Below are positions 9,883-21,852 of a DNA stretch of 25,168 bases, one piece after another. The notes below the pieces were generated by a model. It did not search any database, had not been told where the DNA came from, and saw nothing but the letters and a program-made list of their open reading frames with translations. The position numbers and the translations under genes were made by a program. This DNA is from a virus. Positions within the stretch are counted from its first letter, which is position 1. Each line of letters starts with the position of its first letter. Where the stretch lies: positions 1-25,168 of the IMG/VR virus record IMGVR_UViG_3300042308_000536. One strand, 5' to 3'.

Positions 9883-10476
9883 ATGATACTACTACCTAAT
9901 AAAACAGTCGATCCTAAATACAATTGGATGCGAGGCTTACACGTTCCTGTTAGAATTATTAACGGTTTAATGGACATAAGTCAAATTGTATATGCAGTAG
10001 GCGGCAGCAAACCCTTAATTATAGGCGATACAGTGTATGGTCGTGTTATGGGTAAACCAGGATATATTAGTTTTTATACAACTACAGAAAACATATATAA
10101 CGAGATATTAAACCATCCTGATTCATATTATTATTGGTCTAGGGAACGACCATCTAAAGGATATGCAAATCCACCTATGCCTACACTATTTGTTAGAGGT
10201 AGAACATCCAGCGAAGAACCGTGGCATAAATGGTCAGAACGGCAGATAGCAAACAAAATTATTGCTATTTGTGAAGATAGTGTAAAGAGTAAAGATCCTA
10301 TTGATATTATTTGTTTAGTTAATGGATTATCACATTGGGCATTTTTAGAACTATTTCAGTCAAGATATCCGGAGCATTATTATGAGTATACAAAATATAA
10401 AAAAATACCTAACACAGATAGCCTCGCCACAGAGTTATCTAAAAGATTTCCCTATATGTCCAGCACTGCAGAATAA
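9883..10476 (+). CDS. Unknown protein, 197 residues
   Basis: I do not recognise a family. The start at 9883 is supported by CGAGGAA just upstream. The protein is basic and rich in Tyr, Trp and Pro (for example YYYWSRERPSKGY and EEPWHKWSERQIANK), with no signal peptide, no membrane segment and no clear catalytic motif. The C-terminal 31 codons overlap the next gene in another frame (10382-10476). It is the largest gene here for which no structural role is evident. It may be a phage-specific accessory protein or a DNA- or protein-binding factor. Confidence is high that it is coding and nil for function. Confidence 0.7.
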   Translation: MILLPNKTVDPKYNWMRGLHVPVRIINGLMDISQIVYAVGGSKPLIIGDTVYGRVMGKPGYISFYTTTENIYNEILNHPDSYYYWSRERPSKGYANPPMPTLFVRGRTSSEEPWHKWSERQIANKIIAICEDSVKSKDPIDIICLVNGLSHWAFLELFQSRYPEHYYEYTKYKKIPNTDSLATELSKRFPYMSSTAE

Positions 10477-10810: not shown

Positions 10811-11167
10811 GACAAAATATTTGTTATATAACAAATTTATAACTAGATATTACATGTTGCTACTACGTATCAACAGAAGAACTACTAAATCTTCACTACG
10901 TTCGATTTCTTGTTCTTCGATTGCATTTCTATTTCTTTCAAAGTCATCATATAGAGGTAATAAGAAATAATATCGAATAGACATCAAGTTTGAGATAGTG
11001 ATGGCTACTGTGATCTGGCAACAAAAAAAAATAAATCTTTTTGTTCCGATCTCGTAACCACCACACACTTTTCGACTTCAAGAATCGATCAGCGACCTAT
11101 TACTCTATTACCCGGAAGTTTGACTATGTGTAACCGGAACCCTTGCGGGAAGTAGGCATACCACTGT
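10811..11167. other. Non-coding stretch between convergent genes
   Basis: This 357-bp gap separates the + strand gene ending at 10810 from the end of the leftward gene at 11168. It holds a perfect 18-bp palindrome at 10819-10836, an A/T stem at 11020-11027 / 11038-11045, and a potentially folded patch at about 11095-11155. That patch contains CCGGAACCC followed by a CCC-TTGC-GGG hairpin (a CCC-GCAA-GGG tetraloop on the - strand). A 44-codon leftward ORF (10984-10850) exists but has no ribosome binding site, and I do not call it. No strong terminator was found for either converging gene. Confidence 0.5.
10819..10836. repeat. Perfect 18-bp palindrome
   Basis: ATTTGTTATATAACAAAT is a perfect dyad starting 9 nt after the stop of the 10382 gene. 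It could be a weak AT-only terminator, since TTTAT follows on the + strand, or a binding site. Base pairing is clear; function is not. Confidence 0.4.
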
Positions 11168-11587
11168 TTATCTATTGCTAATAGGTGCAATAGCAGCGTC
11201 AGGTGCGTTAGCCATCATATATCCACCTGATTTTGCATTCCATTGTGTTCTTAGAGCCTTGATTGATTTTTGTTGTTGTGCCAATTTATTTTTTCTATCA
11301 ATTACAGTAATAGTTATTTGTTCTAATTTGCCAAGGTTTTTCTTAGATATTTTTTTGCCTTTATTATAACATAAGCCCCAGTATGCGCCCCAAATTGCCT
11401 GTTCAGATTTGTTTAAGTCTTGCCATAATGCATCACGAAAGTTCAGCAATAGAACAATATCCCCAAAGTGAGGATGCTGTTCAATTGTTGAAAGCGAAAT
11501 ACCTTTTCGCTTTGCCCAATACCCAATAAGTTGTTGCTGCTCGATATAACGAACATTTGCAGCAAAATTTTTGTCTATTGAGTTCAT
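11168..11587 (-). CDS. Leftward gene of unknown function, 139 residues
   Basis: One of only two convincing leftward genes. The start at 11587 is preceded by AAGGCAACAAAT, a plausible ribosome binding site. The N-terminal half is helical (YWAKRKGISLSTIEQHPHF, about 23-41). Then come a WGAYWGLCYNKGKKISKKN segment (about 66-84) and a basic coiled-coil-like stretch near 85-115. The C-terminus is low-complexity (Ala, Pro, Met). The basic helical composition allows a nucleic-acid-binding role, but I see no classical helix-turn-helix. Its opposite orientation, its own promoter-like site at 11678-11693 and its structured leader suggest it is expressed separately from the late genes, so an early or regulatory role is possible. 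Function unknown. Confidence 0.7.
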   Translation of the reverse strand: MNSIDKNFAANVRYIEQQQLIGYWAKRKGISLSTIEQHPHFGDIVLLLNFRDALWQDLNKSEQAIWGAYWGLCYNKGKKISKKNLGKLEQITITVIDRKNKLAQQQKSIKALRTQWNAKSGGYMMANAPDAAIAPISNR

Positions 11588-11622
11588 ATTTGTTGCCTTA
11601 TACTGTGCCTTATATTTGTGTA

Positions 11623-11680
11623 GTAGGGTGACCTAAGGCATAAGTCCGACGGGTAATTACTTCCGTTGTTTTAACCCTAC
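11623..11680 (-). ncRNA. Three-way-junction structured RNA in the leader of the 11168-11587 gene
   Basis: A perfect 7-bp closing stem (GTAGGGT with ACCCTAC; 11623-11629 with 11674-11680) encloses two hairpins. One is at 11630-11646 (GACTTA-TGCCT-TAGGTC on the - strand) and the other at 11648-11669 (ACGG core pairing with CCGT). On the - strand the element begins exactly where the TATAAATA-type site would start a transcript, and it lies 36 nt upstream of the start codon. Wobble pairs favour one hairpin on each strand, so strand is not proven. At 58 nt it is too short for a tRNA. It could be a cis-regulatory leader, a stabilising 5' end or a free small RNA. Confidence 0.5.
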
Positions 11681-11715
11681 AATATTATTTATATATTTTA
11701 TATTCAGGATGTCAA
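11678..11715 (-). promoter_or_regulatory. Leftward promoter for the 11168-11587 gene (unit A)
   Basis: On the - strand, TTGACA (11710-11715) lies 16 nt upstream of TATAAATA (11686-11693), followed by ATATTGTA. The -35 and -10 are close to the sigma70 consensus, and the -10 also equals the T4-type late box. Predicted start is the G at 11680, which opens the folded leader. The 16-mer TATAAATAATATTGTA is repeated exactly at 11938-11953. Confidence 0.55.
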
Positions 11716-11733
11716 CTGAATTATTCAGTTTTT
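11714..11733 (+). terminator. Weak rightward terminator-like hairpin
   Basis: AACTGAA (11714-11720), loop TTA and TTCAGTT (11724-11730) are followed by TTT. The stem is AT-rich and overlaps the leftward -35, so it could equally be an operator. Confidence 0.3.
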
Positions 11734-11734
11734 A

Positions 11735-11773
11735 TGTGCAAAAATGCACAAGTATCTGAACAAAAATGCACAA
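11735..11773. repeat. Inverted repeat plus two 13-bp direct repeats spaced by 22 bp
   Basis: CAAAAATGCACAA occurs at 11739-11751 and again at 11761-11773, a spacing of 22 bp or about two helical turns. The first copy also forms the dyad TGTGCA-AAAA-TGCACA (11735-11750). The pair sits just upstream of the unit A promoter and just downstream of the unit B terminator. Paired sites spaced this way suggest a protein-binding site (operator or iteron-like). Confidence 0.4.
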
Positions 11774-11774
11774 T

Positions 11775-11807
11775 AAAAAACCCTACTGTTATAATTTAAC
11801 AGTAGGG
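11775..11807 (-). terminator. Intrinsic terminator of leftward unit B
   Basis: A perfect 11-bp stem (CCCTACTGTTA at 11781-11791 with TAACAGTAGGG at 11797-11807) and a 5-nt loop. On the - strand it is followed by six U (11775-11780). There is no U-tract on the + strand, so it acts leftward. Confidence 0.8.
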
Positions 11808-11940
11808 CCAGATAGTTAAAAGAAAAGTTAGTTTAGGAACAGAATATACAAGAGAAACAGGTCACCACGACAGCGAGTAAGCACAACTTGTTATATTCAG
11901 GTTTATCAAGGAACATGCCATCTGTTTTTTAAATGCTTAC
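11775..11940 (-). ncRNA. Putative structured small RNA (unit B), about 165 nt
   Basis: The RNA is inferred from a promoter-like 16-mer (11938-11953) at one end and a strong terminator at the other, with no ORF of useful size between. The 5' end would lie in a 7-bp stem, GTAAGCA with TGCTTAC (11934-11940 with 11877-11883). That stem encloses possible hairpins near 11915-11929 (AACA/TGTT) and 11888-11912 (CTTG/CAAG). The layout, promoter then a stem sealing the 5' end, parallels the element at 11623-11680. Confidence 0.45.
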
Positions 11941-11953
11941 AATATTATTTATA
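11938..11953 (-). promoter_or_regulatory. Leftward promoter-like site of unit B
   Basis: TATAAATAATATTGTA on the - strand is identical over 16 bases to the unit A site. No good -35 is visible; TTAGCA inside the upstream terminator stem is the nearest match at about 15 nt. It matches the T4-type late box, or a sigma70 -10 with a poor -35. Confidence 0.45.
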
Positions 11954-11956
11954 ATC

Positions 11957-11995
11957 AAAAAAAATCCCTGCTAAGAGAGTCATATAGCAGGGATT
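11957..11995 (-). terminator. Intrinsic terminator of leftward unit C
   Basis: A perfect 11-bp stem, AATCCCTGCTA (11963-11973) with TAGCAGGGATT (11985-11995), and an 11-nt loop. On the - strand a run of eight U follows (11957-11964). The + strand side lacks a U-tract. Confidence 0.8.
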
Positions 11996-12045
11996 CTAAA
12001 TTTAAGGAGATTAAAAAATGGACCTCATGGTCACTTTACAATCAT
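11957..12045 (-). ncRNA. Putative small RNA (unit C), about 85 nt
   Basis: A leftward transcript from the TATAAATA site at 12049-12056 would run through a small GACC-ATGA-GGTC hairpin (12021-12032) and an A/U-rich linker, then end at the strong terminator 11957-11995. It is antisense to the ribosome binding site and the whole of a rightward 9-codon ORF at 12018-12047, so it could act on that leader. Evidence is promoter-like box plus terminator only. Confidence 0.4.
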
Positions 12046-12047
12046 AA
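12018..12047 (+). CDS. Possible 9-codon leader peptide
   Basis: ATG at 12018 is preceded by a strong ribosome binding site, AAGGAG at 12004-12009, at 8 nt. It encodes MDLMVTLQS and stops at 12045-12047, 8 nt before the start of the 97-residue membrane protein, which itself has no ribosome binding site. Translation of the short ORF may therefore deliver ribosomes to the next gene. It overlaps putative antisense unit C. Coding by signals only. Confidence 0.35.
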   Translation: MDLMVTLQS

Positions 12048-12048
12048 G

Positions 12049-12056
12049 TATTTATA
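12049..12056 (-). promoter_or_regulatory. Leftward promoter-like box of unit C
   Basis: TATAAATA on the - strand, followed by CTTATGATTGTA, a 4-nt-longer relative of the unit A and B sites. No clear -35. The box overlaps the start codon of the rightward gene at 12056. Confidence 0.35.
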
Positions 12057-12349
12057 TGGAAGAAATAGTTGAAATAACCAGCAAATACGCTTTTCCTATA
12101 ATTGCTGCGTGTGGCATGGGATATTTTCTGTATTTCATTTGGCGTTGGGTCACAGAAGAAATCGATCCTGTATTAGGTGCTACGATGGGAACATTAATTA
12201 AACTTGTAGATAGAATACGCATGTTGGATAATGAATTGATTCGCATGAAGATGAAGATTGACACAACATTAGAACTGAGAGAAAAAATTCGTGCTGCAGA
12301 GTTAGAAGAACTACGAAATCAAAACTCCCCAAAAAATAACCCATTATAG
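12056..12349 (+). CDS. Small membrane protein with C-terminal coiled coil (possible holin or spanin-like)
   Basis: A protein of 97 residues. Residues 11-32 form one strong membrane segment (YAFPIIAACGMGYFLYFIWRW). It is followed by an acidic patch, a conserved-looking GTLIKLVDRIRMLDNELIRMKMK helix and a charged coiled-coil tail. One membrane helix plus coiled coil is compatible with a holin, an inner-membrane spanin or a membrane anchor, but no diagnostic motif is visible. The start has no ribosome binding site of its own; translation may depend on the 9-codon ORF just upstream. It precedes a sigma70-like promoter at 12363, so it is probably not in the same transcript start as the genes that follow. 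Confidence 0.65.
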   Translation: MEEIVEITSKYAFPIIAACGMGYFLYFIWRWVTEEIDPVLGATMGTLIKLVDRIRMLDNELIRMKMKIDTTLELREKIRAAELEELRNQNSPKNNPL

Positions 12350-18405: not shown

Positions 18406-18413
18406 TATAAATA
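18406..18413 (+). promoter_or_regulatory. Rightward T4-late-like box upstream of the 18445-20129 genes
   Basis: TATAAATA with no recognisable -35. The expected start near 18419 would give a short leader before the GGGAG ribosome binding site at 18433-18437. It lies back to back with the leftward promoter at 18375-18403. Confidence 0.4.
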
Positions 18414-21844: not shown

Positions 21845-21852
21845 TATAAATA
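21845..21852 (+). promoter_or_regulatory. Rightward T4-late-like box upstream of the scaffold and capsid genes
   Basis: TATAAATA followed by ACATTACA in the 74-nt gap between portal and scaffold genes. There is no convincing -35. It is well placed to boost scaffold and capsid expression. Confidence 0.4.

Follow-up and report, generated by a model that had tools for sequence, protein, structure and literature searches.

The short phage-encoded RNAs sar of P22 and OOP of lambda run antisense to their own target genes; sar has been proposed to pair at a translation start, and OOP is a short separate transcript (PMC12197685). VpdS of phage VP882 and PreS of lambda are Hfq-dependent small RNAs with tested targets, which act in trans and alter phage or host mRNAs (PMC12197685). 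In a marine phage, cyanophage S-PM2, a non-coding RNA of about 225 nt (CfrI) is antisense to psbA and a homing endonuclease gene (PMC2984593). We identified a locus in a small marine siphophage genome which, judged from its sequence and that of its relatives, very probably encodes a conserved structured phage RNA (unit B) with its own predicted promoter and terminator. Like OOP it would be a short separate transcript and like sar it would pair at translation starts, but it has no gene opposite, carries a generic start-site complement and, unlike both, contains a conserved double pseudoknot. The likeness to VpdS and PreS is one of predicted mode of action, as unit B is also proposed to act on mRNAs in trans. 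With CfrI it shares being a non-coding RNA of a marine phage, but unit B overlaps no genes.

A closed 25-kb phage genome and its relatives

The stretch of DNA analysed here, referred to as the window, comprises positions 1-25,168 (25,168 nt) of the IMG/VR record IMGVR_UViG_3300042308_000536. It represents a closed phage genome of about 25.0 kb, as its terminal 128 bases match at both ends with one difference. Portal, scaffold, capsid, tape measure, tail and terminase genes were recognised, and TerL is 47% identical to TerL of Pelagibacter phage HTVC202P. None of the window genes matched a replication family, although ORFs without assignment could still hide one, and the T4 late factors gp55, gp33 and gp45 had no match among the window proteins. 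Gene 17477 gave a weak sigma factor match (E = 0.03), which was outscored by terminase small subunit.

Relatives were fetched by searches with terminase and with ORF-C, the protein gene of the locus, and the comparison, which covered seven divergent genomes, drew on contigs L095, L123 of G001, L125 of G004, L188, L005, L006 and L007 of G015. G015 is a second closed genome (25,439 bp with a 127-bp repeat) that contains structural genes, terminase, an HNH-like gene, a few small genes without assignment and the cassette described below, and no recognisable replication gene. Both the window and G015 thus combine capsid genes with the absence of recognisable replication genes, as satellite viruses do. 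No further members were found in bacterial genomes using ORF-C or the RNA E motif (see below), in sequenced phages by DNA or protein search, or among 29 related viral records, and a search of viral contigs with close DNA patterns returned only contigs that were already known. Two contigs of the same species as the window, L088 and L090, break at window positions 10357 and 12016 and therefore lack the cassette region; this stretch is perhaps variable or difficult to assemble.

Leftward boxes resemble late promoters of marine T4-like phages

Three leftward boxes had been reported in the initial annotation of the window, and TATAAATA is indeed present on the minus strand at 12056-12049 (box 1), 11953-11946 (box 2) and 11693-11686 (box 3). 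Box 1 is promoter-like and heads unit A, its best -35 match is 3/6, and it overlaps the start of a rightward gene (12056-12349) encoding a membrane-like small protein (phrog_18771). At least 590 relatives of this protein occur in viral contigs, those of the pelagimyophages HTVC008M and Melnitz among them. Box 2 is part of TATAAATAATATTGTA (11938-11953, minus strand) and heads unit B, with G 11940 as the predicted first transcribed base and no good -35 (4/6, spacer 15). The unit C promoter (11678-11725, minus strand) consists of TTGACA, 16 nt and TATAAATAATATTGTA. The exact 16-base promoter that had been assigned to units A and B is real and occurs twice genome-wide (11953-11938 and 11693-11678), but it is shared by boxes 2 and 3 and not by box 1, because box 1 continues CTTATGATTG. 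The description of the genome as otherwise rightward was nearly right, a second leftward unit being located at 18403-17864. At 18403-18297 (minus strand) a perfect TTGACA-17-TATAAT promoter has a terminator within the next 75 nt, and a leftward gene of 118 aa comes after it; similar leftward promoters are present in L095 (9232 and 9103) and L093 (8489 and 7964).

The number of TATAAATA copies in the window is ordinary (6 against 3.7 expected; 14/100 shuffles), but their placement is unusual, with five of the six being intergenic, and an origin by chance was rejected. In seven related phages ATAAATA was intergenic in 25 of 36 cases, compared to 208 of 1152 for all its anagrams, which places it first among 21. 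On the plus strand of the window, TATAAATA is found upstream of the scaffold-capsid operon (21845-21852), a position kept in G015, G001 and G009, and upstream of the terminase operon (18406-18413). In the T4-like pelagimyophage HTVC008M, 14 of 18 copies of ATAAATA lie within 100 nt upstream of a CDS, and the distance to the ATG is often exactly 13 nt. The late promoter published for T4-like phages of marine origin is NATAAATA (PMC2984593). The intergenic placement, the kept operon box, the HTVC008M pattern and the published promoter together suggest that the box is a promoter element of the T4-late kind. The octamer is identical to that of the marine T4-like myophages, the distance to the predicted start is similar, and a -35 is likewise lacking in window box 2 and L005-L007 (PMC2984593; HTVC008M).

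Two features differ from T4-type late systems. Late promoters of the T4 type require gp55, gp33 and gp45, none of which was recognised in the window. In addition, while the unit B promoters of the window and L005-L007 have no good -35, those of the leftward-clade contigs L123, L125 and L095 carry -35 matches of 5-6/6, as do several unit C promoters, so that reading by host sigma-70 is also possible.

In HTVC008M (L211, 1-50000) many late genes have TATAAATA-N5 immediately before the ATG, from which leaderless late mRNAs are predicted. A looser promoter pattern mostly retrieved hsp20/dnaK leaders of other phages: about 65 phage contigs, often large ones (L128-L196), have TTGACA-17-TATAAATA-N5-GTAGG before hsp20- and dnaK-like genes (e.g., L128 3295-3255, minus strand, and L131 3490-3530, plus strand), and a GUAGG..CCUAY stem often opens at the first base of these leaders. 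Those of L128, L131, L144 and L163, searched as one batch, had no Rfam match.

Unit B is a probable conserved RNA with a double pseudoknot

Unit B is a predicted structured non-coding RNA of 166 nt (11775-11940, minus strand). The strong terminators proposed after the first two boxes were recovered: unit B ends in an intrinsic terminator (11775-11809, minus strand) whose hairpin of 13 bp, at about 11809-11775, is followed by a U-run, and a terminator-like hairpin at about 11997-11957 follows box 1. No ORF of at least 50 aa is present in the unit A or unit B interval, in line with the apparently non-coding nature of both; the short ATG/GTG/TTG frames of unit B, which reach 31 codons in homologues, are unconserved and have no convincing ribosome site.

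A B-like RNA was found at the same location in six further phage contig groups, which include contigs L095, L123, L125, L188, L005, L006 and L007, and where it was located between the same flanking genes or upstream of the ORF-C homologue. These loci consist of the box followed by N5 and G, an RNA of 165-268 nt, a terminator, a second promoter and a small gene. The RNA sequences can barely be aligned and a sequence profile did not recover held-out members; moreover, when unit B is folded in nested form with its terminator left out, it is no stabler than shuffles (z = -0.09). The support for unit B is therefore comparative and not energetic, and the kinship of the B RNAs rests on position, promoter and structure.

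In the window, stem a pairs the predicted first base and its neighbours (11940-11933) with 11884-11877 (GUAAGCAU/GUGCUUAC; shuffle p = 0.0075). A pseudoknot helix b pairs 11927-11922 with 11860-11855, and helix c (11899-11888 with 11853-11842), which has one bulge, encloses a' and b'; all three are on the minus strand. The window, L095, L125 and L123 share the topology a - b - hairpins - c - a' - hairpin - b' - c', and the joint score of the a/b/c double pseudoknot reached p ≤ 0.005 in each of the four, while by the same score it was not found in L005-L007. Across these four genomes 97% of the cells are paired and 9 of 17 pairs have changed on both sides (0/500 shuffles), compared to 25-34% paired in slid controls; the alignment was assembled by hand from the helices and so leans towards structure, but the compensated pairs are plain in the sequences. 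Compensatory change had been set beforehand as the test of the stems, and the helices are kept in this way in the clade of the window, where a double pseudoknot takes the place of the multi-branch structure originally proposed. A first-base stem of 6-11 bp is present in each of the seven genomes (shuffle p 0.0025-0.065), beginning at base 3 in L095.

Searches of unit B and RNA E against Rfam release 15 at gathering cut-offs gave no family, and a permissive search gave chance-level matches only; no tRNA or tmRNA was found. An HDV-like ribozyme was considered for unit B because the topology is alike (a 7-bp first-base stem and a nested double pseudoknot), but no Rfam model matched. HDV-like cleavage is unlikely to apply, as the promoter spacing places the start of stem a at the predicted transcription start, which would leave nothing 5' to cleave.

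Another reading takes the boxes mainly as T4-type late promoters and the short RNAs as by-products of strong promoters facing strong insulating terminators. ATAAATA is the promoter word of the clade and no other leftward terminators in the region are as strong, both of which would fit, but the compensated helices and the invariant GCCAUU block described below are left unexplained and we regard this reading as improbable.

Units A and C differ from unit B

The three units had been taken as one repeated design of a family of phage small RNAs. Unit B does behave as a small RNA, having analogues with promoter, stem and terminator and compensated helices, but unit A has neither the 16-mer nor a good first-base stem, and unit C serves as leader to a protein gene. 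Unit A is a predicted RNA of 87 nt (11957-12043, minus strand) with a 5' hairpin, an unpaired UCCUU and a 13-bp terminator, and its fold, terminator included, is stabler than shuffles (z = -6.2). The 7-bp first-base stem ascribed to both A and B holds for box 2, whereas box 1 has a weak one of 5 bp (p = 0.23). Positions 12021-12004 of unit A, CCAUUUUUUAAUCUCCUU, are complementary to a ribosome site plus AUGG at natural spacing, and this anti-start fragment paired better than shuffles with translation starts of its own genome (p < 0.005). Unit A may thus represent a shorter RNA of the same kind as unit B.

As had been proposed, the third box is followed by a folded leader and a protein gene. 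The unit C leader (11588-11680, minus strand) opens with the first-base stem GUAGGGU/ACCCUAC (p = 0.010), and its first 16 nt are identical in the window and L095. A possible pseudoknot of UGCCUUA with UAAGGCA holds the ribosome site, so that the leader might carry a pseudoknot of its own over this site; its fold compared to shuffles gave z = -1.1. The leader is followed by ORF-C (139 aa; 11168-11587, minus strand), which is all-helical, has an EQQQLIGYWAK motif and is unassigned to a family. Its predicted structure (helical, mean pLDDT 80) had no match among solved structures and four among viral models, all of them uncharacterised phage proteins.

Unit B carries a candidate pairing site for translation starts

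An alignment of six otherwise divergent B 5' domains contains GCCATT as its sole invariant block, which occupies the loop of a hairpin, with YTCC after it. This loop is altered in the window and L095, and the window counterpart is AUGGCAU (11921-11915) plus UUCCUU (11913-11908), together 11908-11921 on the minus strand. The spaced GCCAT..YTCC pattern occurred in 0.1-0.6% of shuffles. GCCAUU..YUCC is complementary to a ribosome site with AUGGC after it, and starts with AUGGC are frequent (11/38 in G015 and 7/39 in G001).

We compared the pairing of this fragment with all translation starts of its own genome; the fragment, topology and pairing tests were chosen after viewing the sequences, and the p-values are to be read as post hoc. 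The fragment out-paired dinucleotide shuffles at p < 0.005 in five genomes, at p = 0.02 in L095 and at p = 0.015 in the window, while most other tiles of the B RNAs did not out-pair shuffles. Random genome windows paired worse. Scrambling GCCATT weakened the pairing in all five genomes analysed and scrambling YTCC in three of five, and the general pairing to ribosome sites could in part come from YUCC alone. The best partner of the window loop is the start of gene 6742, and both halves of the loop segment fit it (AAGGAAUAAAAAAUGCCAUUC), but taken singly this match did not reach significance (p = 0.11). Statistically, and in tests designed post hoc, the complementarity to mRNA starts thus exceeds chance, as expected of a trans-acting antisense RNA.

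Antisense action in cis was also considered. No ORF of at least 50 aa lies opposite 11775-11940, and a cis antisense RNA of the sar/OOP type was rejected. Antisense action on the leader of the next gene was rejected as well, since the complementarity was strong in L123 (0/300 shuffles), weak in the window (13/300) and not found in L095, L125 and L188. In L123 (1528-1791, minus strand) the G001 RNA B is complementary to nearly the entire leader of the next gene, with a perfect core of 15 nt and -33.5 kcal/mol.

From these patterns antisense action of unit B at translation starts appears plausible. We give about an even chance to the fuller proposal that unit B is a free-standing, intrinsically terminated and structured phage RNA that acts in trans in an antisense manner. 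The first-base stem would protect the 5' end from decay, and the exposed GCCAUU loop with YUCC (AUGGCAU and UUCCUU in the window) would pair with the ribosome-binding site and start codon of phage mRNAs, among which AUGGC is a common start. This pairing would reduce their translation, making unit B a putative trans-acting repressor.

Unit B belongs to a cassette with ORF-C and a second structured RNA

Beyond what could be seen in the window alone, unit B belongs to a larger cassette that consists of B, a terminator, ORF-C and a structured RNA which we call RNA E. In small marine siphophages this cassette would take the form of RNA B, a terminator, a promoter and an early gene, often ORF-C followed by RNA E. 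RNA E measures about 255 nt, includes a long hairpin whose loop contains a U-run, and is found downstream of ORF-C in L125, L188, L005, L006 and L007; conserved and covarying copies are located at L005 4283-4556, L006 4295-4544, L007 4280-4558 and L125 914-634 (minus strand). In an alignment of five sequences, 21 of the 67 consensus pairs have changed on both sides and 94.8% of the cells are paired (0/500 shuffles). Conservation of RNA E far exceeds that of ORF-C, whose members share about 30% identity, and neither ARAGORN nor Rfam gave a tRNA or tmRNA match. The window contains a diverged copy of the long-hairpin domain (10991-11088, minus strand; E = 0.43), again with the U-run in the loop, at the expected place and on the expected strand downstream of ORF-C. 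L095 and L123 have B and lack ORF-C and E. In these contigs (L095 2601-1680 and L123 about 1445-570, both minus strand) RNA B is followed by two other genes, a zinc-ribbon-like one of 69 aa and one of 200 aa that matches no family.

The gene order bears on the possibility that unit B acts in cis. HK022 put RNA makes polymerase pass terminators, and the structured 5' RNA of B might similarly alter polymerase or sense a signal, giving some read-through into ORF-C. In every case B immediately precedes an early gene, its structure starts at the first base and it ends in a terminator; alternative pairings link its 5' region to the bases just before that terminator, and the extensive leader complementarity in L123 would also fit. 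Against this, the next gene has a strong promoter of its own right after the terminator in all seven genomes, and the second transcript in L125 and L123 has no structured leader. We consider a cis-acting leader or antiterminator unlikely, and less probable than the trans-acting RNA proposed above.

RNAs take part in the replication of ColE1-type plasmids, as primer and regulator, and in phi29 packaging, as pRNA. If B, ORF-C and E formed a module of this kind, they would replace replication proteins or serve in packaging. The absence of recognisable replication genes from the two closed 25-kb genomes speaks for such a module, as does RNA E, which is more conserved than ORF-C and lies immediately before terS and terL in L005 and G015. 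In the window, however, E is 6 kb from terS; a strong terminator closes B, which is unlike a primer, and L095 and L123 have B without ORF-C or E. We regard an RNA-based replication or packaging module as improbable.

Possible helper dependence and significance

The satellites MiniFlayer and MulchRoom resemble the window in having their own capsid genes and no replication genes, but they are Streptomyces satellites of 14-17 kb with known helpers, whereas the window is likened to them by its gene content (PMC10690885). As the closed genomes of about 25 kb (the window and G015) have no recognisable replication genes, dependence on a T4-like helper is possible, and this is the boldest reading of our data. 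Gene 12056 of the window is shared with the pelagimyophages HTVC008M and Melnitz, but it is also present in many other contigs. These marine siphophages of 25-28 kb would then be satellites of T4-like pelagimyophages, with capsid, tail and packaging genes and T4-type late promoters but lacking genes for replication and late transcription; B, E and ORF-C would carry most of the non-structural programme, and B would tune translation of the phage and possibly of the helper. This full scenario we hold to be quite unlikely. T4-type late promoters depend on factors that the phage seems not to encode, so that the promoter result offers a simple test.

The cassette comprises two RNAs without Rfam match and one small protein, and its presence in genomes without a recognisable replication gene raises the question of how such phages take over cells, by RNA, by a helper or by both. 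Most known phage small RNAs come from prophages of enteric bacteria, and a conserved pseudoknotted RNA module in minimal ocean phages would extend this theme to uncultured phages of the virulent type.
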